NCBI RefSeq assembly: GCF_014652235.1
Contig: NZ_BMYK01000034.1
Location: 1 to 57,602, forward strand
Length of the DNA: 57,602 bases
Source of the DNA: Pseudorhodoferax aquiterrae
GTDB lineage: Bacteria; Pseudomonadota; Gammaproteobacteria; Burkholderiales; Burkholderiaceae_C
Direction of reading: 5' to 3'
The notes beneath the pieces are model-generated. The model saw nothing but the letters and a program-made list of their open reading frames with translations. It did not search any database and had not been told where the DNA came from. Numbering within the stretch: the first letter of the stretch is position 1; each line of letters opens with the position of its first letter. This document shows positions 7,042 through 13,821 of the stretch, in pieces. Both the position numbers and the translations under genes were made by a program.

Positions 7042-8076
7042 ATGGCCTTGATGGACTTCATCCGCAAGCAATTCATCGACGTCATCCAGTGGACGGAAGA
7101 CGGCGACGGCACGCTGGCATGGCGCTTTCCCATGCAGGACATGGAGATCCAGTACGGGGCCTCGCTGACCGTGCGCGAGTCGCAGATGGCGGTGTTCGTG
7201 AACGAGGGCAAGGTGGCCGACGTGTTCGGCCCGGGTTTGTACAAGCTCACCACGCAGAACATCCCGCTGCTGACCAACCTCAAGAACTGGGACAAGCTGT
7301 TCGAGTCGCCGTTCAAGAGCGACGTCTACTTCTTCAGCACGCGCCAGCAGGTCGACCAGAAATGGGGCACGCCCCAGCCCGTGACGATCCGCGACAAGGA
7401 CTTCGGCGCCGTTCGGCTGCGCGCCTTCGGCAACTACAGCTACCGCGTCGCCGACCCCCGGCTGTTCCACACCGAGATCTCGGGCACGCGCGAACGCTAT
7501 GGCGTGGCCGACCTGGACGGGCAGCTGCGCGGCCTGGTGCTGCAGCACCTGTCGGACGGCATCGCGCAGAGCGGCATCCCGTTCCTGGACCTGGCGGCCA
7601 ACCAGATCGCGTTCGCCAAGGCCCTGGCGGCCGAGCTGGGCCCGGCCTTCGCGGCCATCGGTCTCAAGCTGGAAGGCATGACGGTGCAGAACGTCTCGCT
7701 GCCCGAGGAGCTGCAGAAGATCCTGGACCAGAAGATCGGCATGGGCATGGTGGGCAACGACATGGGCAGGTTCATGCAGTACCAGACCGCCCAGGCCATC
7801 CCGAACATCGCCCAGGGCGGTGGCGGCAGCGGCATCGCCGGCGACGCCATGGGCCTGGGCGCCGGCGTGGCGCTGGGCCAGGTGCTCGCGCAGAACCTGC
7901 AGCAGGGTTTGCAGCAGCCAGCCCCGGCCGTGCCTGCGACCGCCGCAGCAGCAGTGCTCAAGCCGGAGGACGTGCTGGCCACGCTGGAGCGGCTGGGCGA
8001 ACTCAAGGCCAAGGGCATCCTGACGGACGAAGAGTTCGCCGGCAAGAAGGCCGAGCTGCTCAAGAAGCTGGTCTGA
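7042..8076 (+). CDS. SPFH-domain protein with C-terminal SHOCT module
   Basis: 344-aa protein, also called virion-core-like or YdjI-like. It has an N-terminal SPFH (stomatin/prohibitin-like) domain at about residues 25-240, a Gly/Ala/Gln-rich linker, and a C-terminal SHOCT segment (LERLGELKAKGILTDEEF). It probably assembles at membranes. The start at 7042 follows GAGGAGGGG, a strong ribosome site; an upstream in-frame ATG at 7027 lies within that site's leader. A TATCAT box is at 7005-7010. It is the first gene of the polyamine/membrane block that continues to 12997, with 66 bases to the next gene. Confidence 0.88.
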   Translation: MALMDFIRKQFIDVIQWTEDGDGTLAWRFPMQDMEIQYGASLTVRESQMAVFVNEGKVADVFGPGLYKLTTQNIPLLTNLKNWDKLFESPFKSDVYFFSTRQQVDQKWGTPQPVTIRDKDFGAVRLRAFGNYSYRVADPRLFHTEISGTRERYGVADLDGQLRGLVLQHLSDGIAQSGIPFLDLAANQIAFAKALAAELGPAFAAIGLKLEGMTVQNVSLPEELQKILDQKIGMGMVGNDMGRFMQYQTAQAIPNIAQGGGGSGIAGDAMGLGAGVALGQVLAQNLQQGLQQPAPAVPATAAAAVLKPEDVLATLERLGELKAKGILTDEEFAGKKAELLKKLV

Positions 8077-8142
8077 CCCTGCACCGCGCGGCGGCGTCGC
8101 CCTGACGGGCCGGGCCCGCCGTGCGCCTGCCGCACGCCCCGC

Positions 8143-9654
8143 ATGGCCAACGACATCCCACAGCGCAGCTACAGCGCGCCCTGCCCCGGCTGCGGCGCGC
8201 CGGTCACGTTCCTGCACGCGCAGTCCACCCACGCCGTCTGCGCCTACTGCCAGAGCACGGTGGTGCGCAACGGCGCGGTGCTGCGCCGGCTCGGCAAGAT
8301 GGCCGAGCTGTTCGACGACCACAGCCCGCTGCAGCTGCAGGCCAGCGGCATCTGGGATGGCCAGGCCTTCACGCTGATCGGCCGCTTGCAGTACCGCGGC
8401 AGCAACGGCACCTGGACGGAATGGGAGGCCTTGCTGGCCGACGGCAGCCTGGCCACCCTGGGCGAGGACAACGGCAGCTACGTGTTCAGCCGGCCCGGCG
8501 CGGCCCAGCAGGCCTTGCCCGCGGCCGGCACGCTCCGCGTGGGCCAGCGCGTGGAACTCTCGGGCACGGCCTACAGCGTCGCCAGCCGCGACCAGACCGC
8601 GCTGATCGCGGCCGCGGGCGAGCTGCCGCACCTGCCGCCGCTGGGCCAGGCCTTCGAGATGGTGGAGCTGCGCAGCGCCGACGGCGAGGTGCTCAGCATC
8701 GACCACGGCCGCCAGCCGCCGCTGGTGGCGCGCGGCCGCGCGGTACGGCTGGAGGATCTGCAGTTGCGCGGCCTGCGCGAGGCCATCGCCAAGGAAGAGC
8801 GCGCGCGCCAGTTCGCCTGCCCGCAGTGCGGCGCGCCCGTGCAGGTGAGCCTGGCCAGCAGCAAGACCGTCACCTGCCCGCAGTGCCACGCCGTGATCGA
8901 CCTGTCGGCCGGCACCGGTGGCGAGCTGCGCCATGCGCTGCAGGACGAACCGCTGCGCCCGCTCATCGCGCTCGGCAGCATCGGCCGGCTGCAGGGCGTG
9001 GACTGGCAGGTGGTGGGCTTTCAGCACCGGCTGGGCCGCGACCCCGAAGACCCCGACGAAAGCTTCGGATGGAGCGAGTACCTGCTCTACCACGCCAAGC
9101 GCGGCTTCTCCTTCCTGGTCGATGCGCAGGACGGCTGGAGCATGGTGGCGCCGACCACGGGCGCGCCCCAGCTCTCGGGCGATGGCCGCAGCGCGAGCTA
9201 CCTGGGCAGCCGCTACGAACTGCGCGAGCGCTACCAGGCCGAGACCGATTACGTGGCCGGCGAGTTCTACTGGCCCGTGCGGCGCGGCGACAAGACCAGC
9301 AACAGCGACTTCGCCAAGGGGCGCACGCTGCTGTCGATGGAGCGGACGGCGCACGAGATCACCTGGTCCAGCGGCGGCCAGCTGGACAGCGCCACCGTGG
9401 CCCAGGCCTTCAAGCTGGAGGGCCGCAAGGATCTGTTCCAGCGCAGCGACGCGGCGCCGCTGAGCGCGGCCGCGGGCCTGAGCCGCACCACCATCATCCT
9501 GGTCGTGCTGTTGGTGCTGGTCATCGTGCTCGTCGCGCGCTGCGACGGCTGCGACCCGCAGCGCGAGAACTGCAGCAGCAGCGGCAGCAGCTACTCCAGC
9601 CGCTCCAGCGGCGCCTCGTACGGGGGCTACACCAGCGGCGGTGGCCACAAATGA
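8143..9654 (+). CDS. Zinc-ribbon DUF4178 membrane protein
   Basis: 503-aa protein of unknown biochemical role. The N-terminal zinc ribbon uses C14-x2-C17 and C33-x2-C36, and a second ribbon (FACPQCG...TCPQCH) sits near residue 225-250. DUF4178-like beta-rich segments follow each ribbon. A single membrane helix (TIILVVLLVLVIVLVA) lies near residue 448-465, followed by a Cys/Ser/Gly-rich tail (RCDGCDPQRENC). The family is repeatedly found beside DUF350 and spermidine-synthase-like genes, as here. It may sense or scaffold at the inner membrane; that is inference. Confidence 0.85.
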   Translation: MANDIPQRSYSAPCPGCGAPVTFLHAQSTHAVCAYCQSTVVRNGAVLRRLGKMAELFDDHSPLQLQASGIWDGQAFTLIGRLQYRGSNGTWTEWEALLADGSLATLGEDNGSYVFSRPGAAQQALPAAGTLRVGQRVELSGTAYSVASRDQTALIAAAGELPHLPPLGQAFEMVELRSADGEVLSIDHGRQPPLVARGRAVRLEDLQLRGLREAIAKEERARQFACPQCGAPVQVSLASSKTVTCPQCHAVIDLSAGTGGELRHALQDEPLRPLIALGSIGRLQGVDWQVVGFQHRLGRDPEDPDESFGWSEYLLYHAKRGFSFLVDAQDGWSMVAPTTGAPQLSGDGRSASYLGSRYELRERYQAETDYVAGEFYWPVRRGDKTSNSDFAKGRTLLSMERTAHEITWSSGGQLDSATVAQAFKLEGRKDLFQRSDAAPLSAAAGLSRTTIILVVLLVLVIVLVARCDGCDPQRENCSSSGSSYSSRSSGASYGGYTSGGGHK

Positions 9655-9679
9655 AGACTCTTTCTGACGGAGGTTCCCC

Positions 9680-9901
9680 ATGGGACTGGAATGGTTGAAA
9701 CCCGGCGCCTTCTTCGGCTCCATCCTGTACGCGCTCATCGGCGTCGTGGTGTTCTGGCTGGCCTTCGTCGTGATCGACAAGATCACGCCCTACGACCTGT
9801 GGCAGGAACTGGTCGAGAAGCAGAACGTGGCGCTGGGCATCGTGGTCGGCGCCATGTGCCTGGGCATCTCCGTGATCGTCGCCGCCGCGGTGCACGGCTG
9901 A
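9680..9901 (+). CDS. DUF350 (YjfL-type) small membrane protein
   Basis: 73-aa protein with two membrane helices (ILYALIGVVVFWLAFVVI and VALGIVVGAMCLGISVIVAAAV) separated by a short charged loop (DKITPYDLWQELVEKQ), which matches one DUF350 repeat. A good ribosome site (ACGGAGG) precedes the ATG. It lies 25 bases after the DUF4178 gene and 4 bases before the aminopropyltransferase. In E. coli the relative YjfL is encoded beside a PspA-like protein and a glutathionylspermidine-synthase-like ATP-grasp, which also links the family to membranes and polyamines. Confidence 0.88.
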   Translation: MGLEWLKPGAFFGSILYALIGVVVFWLAFVVIDKITPYDLWQELVEKQNVALGIVVGAMCLGISVIVAAAVHG

Positions 9902-9905
9902 GCGC

Positions 9906-11429
9906 GTGACGAGCGCCGCTTCGCGGCCGGTGGCGGTCGCGCTGCTGGCCAGCGTCTTCGTCGTGGCCGCGTGCGGCCTGGTCTACGAGCTGGCCGCGGG
10001 CGCCCTGGCCTCCTATGTGCTGGGCGACTCCATCCTGCAGTTCTCCACCATCATCGGCAGCTATTTGTTCGCGATGGGCGTGGGCTCCTGGCTGTCGCGC
10101 TATTTCGAGCGCCAGCTGCCCGCGCACTTCCTGCGCATCGAGCTGCTGGTGGCGCTGGTGGGCGGCGCGCTGCCGGCCCTGCTGTTCATCGCCAACGCCT
10201 GGACGCCGGACGCCTTCCGGCTGCTGCTGTACGGCCTGGTGCTGCTGGTCGGCACGCTGGTGGGGCTGGAGATCCCGCTGGTCATGCGCATCCTCAAGCG
10301 CGACGTGGCGCTCAAGGACCTGGTCTCGCAGGTGCTGACCTTCGACTACCTGGGCGCGCTGGCCGTGTCGGTGGCGTTCCCGCTGCTGCTGGTGCCGCAC
10401 CTGGGGCTGGTGCGCACGGGCCTGCTGTTCGGCTTCATGAACGCGGCCGTGGCGCTGTGGGCGCTGTGGCTGTTCCGCCATGAGCTGCGCCAGTTTGGCG
10501 CCCATGCGCTGGCCTGCGCGTGCACGCTGGCCGTGCTGGCCACGGGCTTCGTCGGCGCCGACCGCATCACCACGCTGGCCGAGGACCGCTTCTACCAGGA
10601 CCGCGCCGTGTTCAGCGAACAGACCCCGTACCAGCGCATCGTGGTCACGCACGGGCGCGCCGGCCACAGGCTGTACCTCAACGGCAACCTGCAGTTCGCC
10701 GAGCACGACGAGTACCGTTACCACGAGGCCCTGGTGCACCCGGCCATGGCCGCCCATGGCGCGCCGCGCAAGGTGGCGGTGCTGGGCGGCGGGGACGGCA
10801 TGGCCGTGCGCGAGATGCTCAAGTACCCCACGGTCGAGCAGGTCACGCTGGTCGAACTGGACCCGGCCATGACGCGGCTGTTCCGCGACCACGAAGCGCT
10901 GGCCGCGCTGAACGGGCACGCGCTGCGCTCGCCCAAGGTCACCGTGGTCAACACCGACGCCTTCCGCTGGCTGGAGGAGACGCGCGAGATCTACGACGTG
11001 GTCGTCGTGGACTTCCCCGACCCGACCAACTTCTCCATCGGCAAGCTCTACACCAATTCGTTCTACGCACTGCTGGACCGGCACCTGGCGGCCAGCGGCT
11101 ACGCGGTGGTGCAGTCGACCTCGCCGCTGCTGGCGCGCCAGAGCTTCTGGACCGTGGTGCAGACCATCGAATCGGTGGGACTGCAGACCGCACCCTACCA
11201 CGCCCACGTGCCGAGCTTCGGCGAGTGGGGCTTCGTGCTGGCCGGGCGGCGGCCCTGGCGCACGCCGCCGCAGTTGCCCGAAGGGCTGCGCTTCCTCGAC
11301 CGCGCGGGCGTGGCGGCGCTGTTCGACTTCCCGCGCGACATGGCACGTGTGCCGGCCGAGGTGAACCGGCTGTCCAACCAGGTGCTCGTGAACCTCTACG
11401 AGGACGAATGGGGCAAGGCGCGCCCATGA
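9906..11429 (+). CDS. Membrane-anchored polyamine aminopropyltransferase (spermidine-synthase-like)
   Basis: 507-aa two-part protein. Residues about 10-215 form seven or so membrane helices; residues about 235-470 form a spermidine-synthase fold. Visible motifs are VLGGGDGMAVREML (decarboxylated-AdoMet site), VELDPAM, the TDAF segment and DFPDPTNFSIGKLYTNSFY near the catalytic Asp. It would transfer an aminopropyl group from decarboxylated S-adenosylmethionine to an amine acceptor at the membrane. Translation starts at GTG, 4 bases after the DUF350 stop, and the stop overlaps the next ATG (ATGA). The acceptor could be putrescine or another amine, including a lipid; the sequence does not decide. 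Confidence 0.9.
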   Translation: MTSAASRPVAVALLASVFVVAACGLVYELAAGALASYVLGDSILQFSTIIGSYLFAMGVGSWLSRYFERQLPAHFLRIELLVALVGGALPALLFIANAWTPDAFRLLLYGLVLLVGTLVGLEIPLVMRILKRDVALKDLVSQVLTFDYLGALAVSVAFPLLLVPHLGLVRTGLLFGFMNAAVALWALWLFRHELRQFGAHALACACTLAVLATGFVGADRITTLAEDRFYQDRAVFSEQTPYQRIVVTHGRAGHRLYLNGNLQFAEHDEYRYHEALVHPAMAAHGAPRKVAVLGGGDGMAVREMLKYPTVEQVTLVELDPAMTRLFRDHEALAALNGHALRSPKVTVVNTDAFRWLEETREIYDVVVVDFPDPTNFSIGKLYTNSFYALLDRHLAASGYAVVQSTSPLLARQSFWTVVQTIESVGLQTAPYHAHVPSFGEWGFVLAGRRPWRTPPQLPEGLRFLDRAGVAALFDFPRDMARVPAEVNRLSNQVLVNLYEDEWGKARP

Positions 11430-12997
11430 TCTCGCGGCGCGCCTGGCTGGCCGGCGCGGCCCTGCCGCTGCTGCCCGGCTGCGACGCGCCAGCGCCCCCG
11501 CTGGACGGCGGCTTCGTGGGCGCGAGCGCGGAGCGTGGCCATCTGCTGCGCACGGCCGTGGCGCAGGCGCCGGCACGCACGCAGCGCACGCGCGTGTTGA
11601 TCGCCGGCGGCGGCGTGGCCGGCTTGGCCGCGGCGCGCGCGCTGCGCCAGCGCGGCATGGAGGACTTCGTGCTGCTGGAGCTGGAAGACCAGGCCGGCGG
11701 CAACAGCCGCGCCATGCAACTGCAGGGCCTGCCCTGCCCGCTCGGCGCGCACTACCTGCCGCTGCCCACGGACGCGGCGCGCGAGGTGCAGGACCTGCTG
11801 GAGGAGCTTGGCCTGCGCCGGCGCGTGGCGGGCCGCTGGGAATACGACGAACGCCACCTGTGCCACAGCCCGCAGGAGCGGCTGTACCGCAACGGCCATT
11901 GGCAGGACGGCCTGCTGCCCGTGCAAGACATCGCCGCCGACACGCTGGCCCAGTACCGGCGCTTCGCCGCGCGTGTGGCCGCGCTGATGCGCAGCGCCCC
12001 GTTCGCCCTGCCCGCGCAGCGCGCGGCCTTCACGGCCGAACACGCGGCGCTGGACGCGCAGACCATGGCGCAGTGGCTGGGCCGCGAAGGCCTGGACGAC
12101 GCGCAGTTGCTCTGGTACCTGGACTACTGCTGCCGCGACGACTTCGGCGCCGGCCTGGCGAGCGTGTCGGCCTGGGCCGGCATCCACTACTTCGCCAGCC
12201 GGCACGGCTTCCATGCGCCAGGCGATGCCGATGCCGAACGCGAGGCCGTACTGACCTGGCCCGAGGGCAACGCCTGGCTTGCGCAGCGGCTGGCGCAGCC
12301 GCTGGGCGATCGGCTGCGCTGCGGCCGCGTGGTGCGACGCATCGCCACGCACCGGCACGGCGTGGCCGTGCAGGCGCTGGACCTTGGCAGCGGCCAGCTG
12401 GAGCAGTGGGAGGCCACGCACTGCATCGTCGCGCTGCCGGTGTTCGTGGCCACGCGCGTGCTGGCCGATGCGCCGGCGTTCGTGCACGACGCCGCGTCCG
12501 CGCTGCTCTACGCGCCCTGGCTGGTGGCCAACGTGCACCTGCGCGCCGCCCTGGCCGACCGCGGCGGCGCGGCGCCGAGCTGGGACAACGTGGTCTACGG
12601 CAGCCAAGGCCTGGGCTATGTCGATGCCGGCCACCAGGGCCTGGGGCAGCGCCGCCCAGACAGCCCGCGCGTGCTGAGCTGGTACCACGCACTGGGCCTG
12701 GCAACGGACGCGCGCAGCGCGCTACTGCAGCAGCCCTGGCAGCACTGGGCAATGCAGTTGTTCGACGAACTCGGCGCGGCCCACCCCGATCTGCGCGACA
12801 AGGCCAGCCACATCGCCATCGCGCGCTACGGCCATGCCATGGCCACGCCGGTGCCGGGCCTGGTGCGGCGGCTGCGCGCCAACCCGGCAACGCCACGGGC
12901 CGGCGCGCTGCTGTTCGCGCACGCGGACTGGTCGGGCTACTCGGTCTTCGAGGAGGCCTTCACGCGTGGCCACCTGGCGGGACTGGCGGCGGGATGA
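11426..12997 (+). CDS. Tat-exported, lipobox-containing FAD-dependent oxidoreductase
   Basis: 523-aa flavoprotein of the NAD(P)-binding/amine-oxidase-like superfamily. The N-terminus has a twin-Arg motif (ISRRAWLAGAALPLLPGC) ending in a lipobox-like LPGC, so export and lipidation are likely. The FAD Rossmann motif is IAGGGVAGLAAARAL, with LLELEDQAGGNS as the second strand. A membrane-anchored polyamine or amine oxidase is one possibility given the neighbours. The ATG overlaps the synthase stop by 4 bases. Its 3' end overlaps the convergent speD gene by 38 bp. Confidence 0.85.
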   Translation: MISRRAWLAGAALPLLPGCDAPAPPLDGGFVGASAERGHLLRTAVAQAPARTQRTRVLIAGGGVAGLAAARALRQRGMEDFVLLELEDQAGGNSRAMQLQGLPCPLGAHYLPLPTDAAREVQDLLEELGLRRRVAGRWEYDERHLCHSPQERLYRNGHWQDGLLPVQDIAADTLAQYRRFAARVAALMRSAPFALPAQRAAFTAEHAALDAQTMAQWLGREGLDDAQLLWYLDYCCRDDFGAGLASVSAWAGIHYFASRHGFHAPGDADAEREAVLTWPEGNAWLAQRLAQPLGDRLRCGRVVRRIATHRHGVAVQALDLGSGQLEQWEATHCIVALPVFVATRVLADAPAFVHDAASALLYAPWLVANVHLRAALADRGGAAPSWDNVVYGSQGLGYVDAGHQGLGQRRPDSPRVLSWYHALGLATDARSALLQQPWQHWAMQLFDELGAAHPDLRDKASHIAIARYGHAMATPVPGLVRRLRANPATPRAGALLFAHADWSGYSVFEEAFTRGHLAGLAAG

Positions 12998-13364
12998 GCC
13001 CGCGCTCCAGCGCCTGGCGCAGCACCTGGGCCGGTTCGAAGCGCGCCACCAGCGCCTCCAGCAGTGCCTGGGCCTGGCCACGGTGGTCGGCGCCGAAATT
13101 GCACACGTAGACGTCCAGCGTCACGGCCGCCTGTTCGGGCCAGGTGTGCACGCACAAGTGGGATTCGGCCAGCAGCACGGTGGCCGTCACGCCACCCGGG
13201 CCCTGCGCCGTGTCGGGGAAGCGGTGGACCAGCTGGCCCACGGGCTGCAGGCCGGCGTCGCGCACGGCCTGCACGCACCAGATGCCCAGCATCTGCGCAT
13301 CGACCAGCCACTGCGGTGCGCAGCGGCAGCCGTGCAGGTCGGCGGTCAGGTGCAAGCCGCGCAT
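12960..13364 (-). CDS. speD: S-adenosylmethionine decarboxylase (pyruvoyl type) proenzyme
   Basis: 134-aa SpeD of the small prokaryotic class. The self-cleavage site is E67/S68 (LAESHLC), which would make the pyruvoyl group on S68. H73 (HTWPE) and C88 (DVYVC) match the processing His and catalytic Cys. The N-terminus shows HLTADLHGC. It would supply decarboxylated AdoMet to the aminopropyltransferase encoded on the facing strand. The gene follows the FKBP gene by 16 bases on the same strand, so the two may be co-transcribed. It ends inside the FAD oxidoreductase gene (38-bp antisense overlap). Confidence 0.92.
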   Translation of the reverse strand: MRGLHLTADLHGCRCAPQWLVDAQMLGIWCVQAVRDAGLQPVGQLVHRFPDTAQGPGGVTATVLLAESHLCVHTWPEQAAVTLDVYVCNFGADHRGQAQALLEALVARFEPAQVLRQALERGLIPPPVPPGGHA

Positions 13365-13380: not shown

Positions 13381-13821
13381 TCACTTGCCGTTGATGCCGA
13401 GGAGTTCGACTTCGAACTGCAGCGTGGCGTTGGGCGGAATCACGCCGCCCGCGCCGCGCGAACCGTAGGCGATCGCCGCCGGGCAGGTCAGCTTGGCCTT
13501 GCCGCCGACCTTCATCTTCTGCACGCCCTCGGTCCAGCACGGGATCACGCCGTTCAGCGGGAACTCGATCGGGGCGTTGCGCTTGTAGGAGCTGTCGAAC
13601 TCCTTGCCGTCCAGGAACGTGCCGCGGTAGTGCACCTTGACCTTGTCGCTGGCGCCGGGGCTCGCGCCATTGCCGTCCTGCAGCGAACGGTAGACCAGGC
13701 CGGAGGCCGTGGTCTGCGCGCCGGGTTCCTTGGCGGCGGCTTCGAGCGTGGTGGTGGACTGGGCGAAGACGGCAGTGGTGAACAACGCGGCGAGCACGAC
13801 GACAGGGGTACGGATGGGCAT
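13381..13821 (-). CDS. FKBP-type peptidyl-prolyl cis-trans isomerase, exported
   Basis: 146-aa proline isomerase. A signal peptide ([21 protein letters not shown]) indicates periplasmic location. The FKBP domain at about 45-145 has [56 protein letters not shown] and LLGI. The start at 13821 is chosen for the signal peptide and for the AAGGAGA ribosome site just upstream; a longer frame to 13875 would spoil the signal peptide. It is divergent from the patatin gene. A role in folding exported proteins is family knowledge. Confidence 0.93.

Follow-up and report, generated by a model that had tools for sequence, protein, structure and literature searches.

We describe a six-gene cluster in a 57,602-nucleotide stretch of DNA from Pseudorhodoferax aquiterrae (NCBI RefSeq assembly GCF_014652235.1, contig NZ_BMYK01000034.1, positions 1 to 57,602; hereafter the window). 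The cluster joins a seven-transmembrane (7TM) aminopropyltransferase (APT) fusion to an S-adenosylmethionine (AdoMet) decarboxylase (SpeD), a putatively exported flavoenzyme, an SPFH protein, a DUF4178 protein and a DUF350 membrane protein. The six genes recur together as a module conserved between genera and between phyla, with co-occurrence far above chance, and charge, hydropathy and cysteine patterns suggest that the APT holds its catalytic domain outside, at the periplasmic face of the inner membrane. The cluster itself has already been published (Ravi 2024, PMC11237479; reportedly also Li 2019); the outer-face location, which a preliminary description of the window did not include, is the present addition. 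We regard it as an evenly balanced proposition that the cluster is an extracytoplasmic aminopropylation system whose acceptor is an envelope amine other than putrescine.

The sample used for co-occurrence comprised 299 genomes of the phylum; the fusion scores above the NCBIfam NF002956 cut-off of 472 bits in 31 of them. The best few first-look candidates were scored in each genome (at most four for NF002956 and at most five for A3, the profile with which the flavoenzyme subfamily was called at E ≤ 1e-50). DUF4178 was found in 19 of the 31 fusion-bearing genomes and in none of the other 268 (Fisher, 3e-22), and the flavoenzyme subfamily in 10 of 31 versus 0 of 268 (3e-11), these p-values ignoring shared ancestry. 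Among the places listed, DUF4178 lies within ~6 kb of the APT in 17 of the 19 genomes; in G207 the distance is ~10 kb, and in G169, a fragmented genome, the two genes are on different contigs; the flavoenzyme shares a contig with the APT in all ten. Within a set of 14 control genomes, the fusion and DUF4178 were both present in one, Corynebacterium glutamicum. The preliminary description had staked its proposal on conserved co-occurrence of these families, which is borne out here across genera and phyla.

Gene order was compared at 111 APT loci, consisting of the window, 30 loci from the phylum sample and 80 named loci that were the best 80 of at least 559 relatives; because they are best matches, close relatives are over-represented among the named loci, which is not so for the 299-genome sample. 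Profiles grown from the window proteins were run against a fetched stretch of up to ~10 kb on each side, many loci being on short contigs, and recovered SPFH at 64 loci, DUF4178 at 82, DUF350 at 92, the flavoenzyme at 78 and SpeD at 54. Where at least 7 kb was available on both sides (64 loci, window excluded), the respective counts were 41, 48, 58, 45 and 34, and the gene lay on the APT strand in 40/41, 47/48, 57/58, 45/45 and 14/34 cases. All six families are found together at 36 of the 111 loci, window included. In gene order, scored as suggested previously, the first four partners are mostly on the APT strand. Loci from Acidobacteriota and Gemmatimonadota (L122, L126-L130, L137-L140) have the unidirectional order SPFH-SpeD-DUF4178-DUF350-APT-flavoenzyme, with DUF4178 encoded in one or two frames. 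In other lineages, the APT has PspA among its neighbours (two clusters, of 8 and 4 loci), or DUF2170 (7 loci), in agreement with Ravi 2024. One locus (L109) has two APT matches (5121 and 7373) on a single 8.2 kb contig, a possible duplication or contig artefact.

The fusion belongs to the NF002956 family 'polyamine aminopropyltransferase' (PRK03612) and is 95% identical to the nearest named relative found, from Pseudorhodoferax. Its helices occupy residues ~10-218 and its catalytic domain ~219-507, the Pfam Spermine_synth match (PF01564, 125.5 bits) following the N-terminal membrane region. Across 108 homologues, a set that omits loci with an APT match shorter than 420 residues, the residues typical of binding to decarboxylated AdoMet (dcAdoMet) are present in every sequence: Q263, D268, E269, Y272, GGGDG with D297, D319, D351, D369, D372 and Q403. 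The acceptor end departs from this picture, with PSFGEWG and Phe438 in 108/108 fusions versus an aligned Tyr in 30/30 other SpeE-type proteins, most often within P(T/S)Y-x-GG. For this comparison we used the 30 SpeE-type proteins that scored best in the phylum sample apart from the fusions (30 out of 80 matches listed); their frame lengths (287-436 aa for 29, more for one) led us to treat them as soluble. We take the Tyr of the PxxY acceptor-end motif of SpeE to have a binding role. The PTYPSG of 1iy9 was considered as a general SpeE motif and dropped, as most of the 30 proteins differ from it and only the Tyr/Phe contrast holds throughout. The nearest solved catalytic domains are 1uir, 3anx (which bears the title spermidine synthase), the thermospermine synthase 6bq2 and 7xif, with the spermidine synthase 1iy9 behind them; 1uir and 3anx are presumably the T. 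thermophilus enzyme, of the aminopropylagmatine type, and 7xif presumably the P. calidifontis enzyme.

Intact catalytic residues would also suit an ordinary spermidine pathway, in which the fusion and SpeD make spermidine from putrescine, and so would the presence of one SpeD and one strong APT in the host genome (the fusion is the sole strong PF01564 match, two others reaching 27 and 21 bits). Similarly, 27 of the 31 fusion-bearing genomes lack a second APT of ~100 bits or more, which was found only in G007, G082, G196 and G255. We nonetheless hold this pathway to be improbable: the fusion scores 147.5 bits against the classical SpeE equivalog TIGR00417 and does not reach the cut-off of 249.55, its acceptor-end motif is changed, and linkage to DUF4178 and the flavoenzyme, both missing from all 268 genomes without the fusion, would be unexpected. 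In addition, passages of PMC12803844, citing Li 2019, describe the bacterial homologues as uninvolved in spermidine or spermine synthesis; the tests in question sought these two polyamines in cell extracts, and the acceptor is not named in those passages. They support the earlier suggestion of an acceptor other than free putrescine. The lipid that had been offered as one candidate fared less well, as nothing found points to a lipid in particular.

SpeD is the sole PF02675 match in the host genome and scores 74.3 bits against the equivalog model TIGR03330, just below its cut-off of 75.65. Its residues E67, S68, H73 and C88 are invariant in 21 aligned cluster homologues, and it was aligned with the solved structures 1tlu and 2iii. 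An AdoMet decarboxylase of either class was detected in 28 of the 31 APT genomes: PF02675 in 25 (versus 46/268 other genomes), and the class 2 enzyme PF01536 in 3 of the remaining 6 (0/14 control genomes), which halves the number of genomes that speak against such a decarboxylase as the donor source. Because of this distribution, SpeD is likely the maker of the aminopropyl donor, as the preliminary description had argued. A role as ornithine or arginine decarboxylase, of the SpeDC/SpeDA kind treated in passages of PMC10407285, was softly rejected, the window protein having HTWPE as in 1tlu and 2iii and P76 being invariant in 21 homologues.

Two further observations concern SpeD. In nine acidobacterial, gemmatimonadal and myxobacterial loci (L120, L122, L126, L128, L130, L136, L137, L140 and L145; alignment A4), SpeD has HTFPE (HSFPE in L137, HTYPE in L126) and an Asn takes the place of the Asp that immediately precedes the region of the catalytic Cys, the window protein having HTWPE and LDVYVC; by these motifs, the nine SpeDs are a diverged AdoMet decarboxylase subgroup that may use a different substrate. 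Separately, SpeD adjoins a SpeE-like domain in same-length open frames (410-451 aa) resembling AdoMet decarboxylase-APT fusions in G082 (G082:C1:3827779-3828891) and G196 (G196:C50:2711-3802), and also in G102 and G270. The frame is the sole PF02675 match in G082 and G196, both of which also carry the 7TM fusion.

The case for an outer-face catalytic domain starts from the seven hydrophobic segments of the APT family average. Loops 2, 4 and 6 hold on average 2.80, 3.68 and 3.05 Lys and Arg residues (sum 9.5), versus 0.16, 0.88 and 1.05 (sum 2.1) in loops 1, 3 and 5 (n = 108), and even loops exceed odd ones in 108/108 homologues, 29/29 phylum-sample sequences and 20/20 sequences after thinning below 60% identity. 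Transmembrane segment 7 (TM7) reaches a hydropathy of 1.6 in 91% of homologues (1.74 in the window), on par with TM5 and TM6. The stretch after TM7 is acidic (3.2 Asp/Glu, 1.0 Lys/Arg) and holds fewer Lys and Arg than loop 6 in 102 of 108 homologues, with a tie in 6. With the N-terminus inside and seven crossings, the catalytic domain would therefore lie outside. It is also poor in cysteine (mean 0.27 in ~251 aa; none in 80 of 108 homologues, one in 27 and two in 1), compared to a mean of 4.03 (range 1-8) in the 30 other SpeE-type proteins (p = 4e-20) and 2.07 in the fusions' own helix region.

Topology was additionally predicted using a home-made dynamic programming method over a grid of 21 settings (helix bonus by charge weight), with five E. 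coli proteins (ProP, EptA, AdiC, MelB and BasS) serving as controls of known topology. For the family average, the C-terminus was placed out in 19 of 21 settings. A helix bonus of 1.5 gave the correct helix number and the correct side for ProP, EptA, AdiC and MelB but failed on BasS; here the family average had seven helices with the C-terminus out at 3/3 charge weights, and the window protein alone was out at 1/3. A first version of the predictor placed the C-terminus of 5/5 controls on the right side while undercounting helices. Single-sequence prediction was tried as a basis for the orientation and found too weak.

The flavoenzyme partner points to the same side of the membrane. After dropping FAD matches shorter than 300 residues, 72 of 79 homologues were kept, and loose patterns were counted with the upstream reading frame included: 66/72 have an RR-x-hydrophobic motif ahead of the Rossmann motif (12.8/72 in shuffled stretches), and 50/72 have a lipobox. 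When anchored 12-55 residues before a conserved GHxLR, the RR motif was found in 60/71 (6.5 expected) and the lipobox in 43/71 (6.1 expected). The first Arg of the RR motif is invariant in 21 sequences (alignment A3), and several acidobacterial and gemmatimonadal flavoenzymes have the RR motif without a lipobox. These patterns support an exported lipoprotein using the twin-arginine route, which would fit a cofactor-bearing enzyme, and the window protein, with both signals, deserves the 'lipoprotein' label given to it earlier. Its Pfam Amino_oxidase score is well above the cut-off of 19.8, and its best solved relative is a putrescine oxidase (E 1.6e-6), many of the 60 matches shown covering the FAD-binding end only. 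No substrate can be assigned because the best NCBIfam match, HpnE (41 bits), is far under its cut-off of 283.

A number of results weigh against an outward-facing system, and several of them favour a membrane APT that faces inward, in which TM7 does not cross and a cytosolic catalytic domain modifies a membrane-bound acceptor, such as a lipid headgroup or membrane protein, or an amine carried by the helices. Taken alone, the window protein was predicted with its C-terminus in at 14 of 21 settings and out at 7, favouring five or six helices, and the first predictor version placed 31 of 108 single sequences in and 77 out, with the window in. At a helix bonus of 0, where 5/5 controls were on the right side, the window was in at 3/3 charge weights and the family average was out at 2/3 with only three or five helices; margins were small, and with a low bonus too few helices were counted in the 12-helix controls. 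The hydrophobicity of TM2 is weak (median 1.33), a feature on which the C-terminus side does not depend. Cysteine depletion is not proof of an outside location, because the presumably cytosolic SPFH protein is poorer still (0.06 versus 0.11 per 100 aa). An inward orientation would also accord with a cytosolic source of dcAdoMet, namely SpeD, for which no signal peptide was seen, and with the SPFH protein and the zinc-ribbon part of the DUF4178 protein being expected inside. Regarding the partners, the flavoenzyme was not detected in 21 of the 31 APT genomes and is therefore not needed everywhere, and no AdoMet decarboxylase was detected in 3 of the 31 (G037, G057 and the 71%-complete G169). 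To our knowledge, no route for dcAdoMet across the membrane has been described. Against an inward-facing enzyme stand the positive-inside pattern in all 108 homologues, the acidic tail after a hydrophobic TM7, the Cys-poor catalytic domain and the export of its partner flavoenzyme, and we consider this orientation unlikely, if still the strongest competitor. It is close to the picture drawn by the preliminary description.

Returning to an extracytoplasmic system, we tentatively propose the following mechanism, at about even odds. Cytosolic SpeD would make dcAdoMet, which we infer would cross the membrane. The seven-helix part would hold, and perhaps also feed, the C-terminal APT domain on the periplasmic face, and this domain would move the aminopropyl group to an amine of the envelope, be it an aminolipid, an amine that has been exported, or the amino group of an exported peptide or protein. 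The twin-arginine-exported flavoenzyme would act outside on the same substrate or on the product, while DUF350, DUF4178 and SPFH, a presumed cytosolic scaffold (PspA or DUF2170 in some other lineages), may build or place the membrane complex. In a more specific version, which we hold to be slightly less secure, dcAdoMet would pass through or beside the 7TM and DUF350 proteins, the APT domain would modify exported proteins, peptides or aminolipids (+57.058 Da), and the flavoenzyme would process the product. Conserved residues in the helix region suggest that the membrane part of the APT is a working part and not a mere anchor: Y27, G40, E122, P124, D147, Y148 and N179 are present in 108/108 homologues, R128 in 107, E28 in 105 and D41 in 99. 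That the helices move dcAdoMet is a guess. The polar residues among them (Y27, E28, E122, R128, D147, Y148 and N179) would also suit a fusion that is mainly a polyamine sensor or transporter, its APT-like domain binding dcAdoMet or polyamines and controlling the helices and an SPFH/PspA complex with little or no catalysis, and a monitoring function was proposed in passages of Ravi 2024 (PMC11237479). We find such a role very improbable, given that the catalytic positions compared vary little or not at all among the 108 homologues, a conservation that a pure sensor would not need.

All six genes, including the SpeD residues named in the preliminary description, were present where it had placed them, as established from open reading frames and a Pfam scan, but SpeD lies on the minus strand and is convergent with the others (Table 1).

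Table 1 Genes of the cluster, with positions in the window
Gene product	Positions	Strand	Supporting match
SPFH/Band-7 protein, C-terminal SHOCT, 344 aa	7042..8076	+	Pfam PF13421 Band_7_1, 258.4 bits; PF09851, 32.3 bits
DUF4178 protein, 503 aa	8143..9654	+	Pfam PF13785, 111.1 bits, two stretches
DUF350 membrane protein, half-length, 73 aa, two hydrophobic stretches	9680..9901	+	Pfam PF03994, 54.7 bits (cut-off 26)
7TM-APT fusion, 507 aa, GTG start	9906..11429	+	NF002956, 699.8 bits
FAD amine-oxidase-like protein, 523 aa, twin-arginine-like signal and lipobox (Cys19)	11426..12997	+	Pfam PF01593, 74 bits
SpeD, class 1b AdoMet decarboxylase proenzyme, 134 aa	12960..13364	-	Pfam PF02675, 88.6 bits

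The DUF350 stop codon (9899-9901) is followed by the GTG of the APT at 9906, the APT stop and flavoenzyme start overlap as ATGA (11426-11429), and the last 38 nt of the flavoenzyme gene (12960-12997) are shared with SpeD. The DUF4178 protein has zinc-ribbon-like CxxC pairs, for which Pfam zinc-ribbon matches were weak and below cut-off, and a hydrophobic helix at its C-terminus; the DUF350 match spans profile positions 8-66 of 133, about half of the Pfam model. The cluster is carried on contig C34 of a 7.1 Mb genome. Flanking genes without a link to it encode a TonB receptor, an NMT1-like protein, a dioxygenase, a metallo-hydrolase, glyoxalase-like and patatin proteins, a short-chain dehydrogenase, an ABM protein, an outer-membrane efflux protein and an RND pump. 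Neither PspA nor CesT/DUF2170 was found by Pfam among 17 window genes (152-20951), the part of the genome that was searched for PspA. The gene 16 nt upstream of SpeD on the same strand (13381-13821, minus) encodes an FKBP-type prolyl isomerase that probably has a signal peptide; it was considered as a seventh part of the cluster and ruled out, being found at 3 of 111 loci.

With an outside active site, the acceptor would best be sought among exported proteins and envelope lipids, by way of a defined mass shift. Among the titles listed in our literature search, none concerned an extracytoplasmic aminopropyltransferase or aminopropylated lipids. Use of dcAdoMet on the outer face would be the first case known to us, and could account in part for the association of the APT family with envelope-stress scaffolds (SPFH, PspA).

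The same fusion family was reportedly treated by Li et al. in 2019 (Biochem J 476:2579), where an MFS/7TM-SpdSyn-like fusion is said to cluster with AdoMet decarboxylase and to have DUF350 as a neighbour, with a class 2 AdoMet decarboxylase in some genomes, as also found here. Fusion and decarboxylase reportedly occur together in thousands of bacterial genomes, spermidine was said to be absent, and neither the fusion nor its SpdSyn-like domain reportedly complemented an E. coli speE deletion. That work is not known to have assigned a membrane side; the window differs from its clusters in the convergent SpeD.

Passages of Ravi 2024 (PMC11237479) describe operons of a 7TM-spermine synthase with DUF350, DUF4178, a lipoprotein and PspA, the first four of which are common to the window, and a variant with a band-7/SHOCT protein, AdoMet decarboxylase and polyamine oxidase, likewise as in the window, the band-7 protein being given a two-transmembrane stretch. 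In their proposal, systems linked to PspA keep watch on either the polyamine level or aminopropylation, and no word starting with 'periplasm' occurs in the main text. The PspA/CesT operons of that work contain PspA and DUF2170, unlike the window genes scanned.

The same layout is seen in NHMT, a fungal 7TM methyltransferase of the endoplasmic reticulum that, according to passages of PMC10349129, methylates LPMO N-termini after signal-peptide cleavage. A ~215-residue 7TM region is followed by a SpdSyn-like domain, as in the bacterial fusions, and this enzyme must act on the lumen side; a chimera with mRFP at its N-terminus was functional. In NHMT, an Ile stands where GxG(D/E)G has its acidic residue, and the enzyme transfers a methyl group; the bacterial family has Asp (D297) in 108/108. 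On the outward-facing reading, NHMT would be a relative that shares this orientation and uses AdoMet. In passages of PMC12803844, the bacterial fusions are given as the only non-fungal homologues of a P. oryzae membrane-APT fusion; 'histidine', 'methyltransferase' and 'LPMO' are all missing from that source, and NHMT is therefore not discussed there.

Other systems share single elements with the window. A twin-arginine-exported spermidine dehydrogenase proposed in P. aeruginosa (passages of PMC11107197) parallels the cluster flavoenzyme, and the B. subtilis pspA-ydjGHI operon, as described in part of PMC8581546, likewise combines an SPFH protein (YdjI) with membrane partners on envelope stress, but consists of pspA and ydjG-I only, with no APT, AdoMet decarboxylase, DUF350 or flavoenzyme. 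The preliminary description had correctly drawn a comparison with E. coli yjfIJKLMC, in which DUF350 (YjfL) stands beside PspA and the polyamine-handling YjfC; that cluster differs in its ligase chemistry and has no APT. The chemistry of the shared envelope-stress/polyamine theme had been called undefined, which is partly outdated, as RefSeq now names YjfC (NC_000913.3:4413028-4414191) 'peptide--spermidine ligase'. By analogy with this name, the theme linked to DUF350 may be the attachment of polyamines to peptides.

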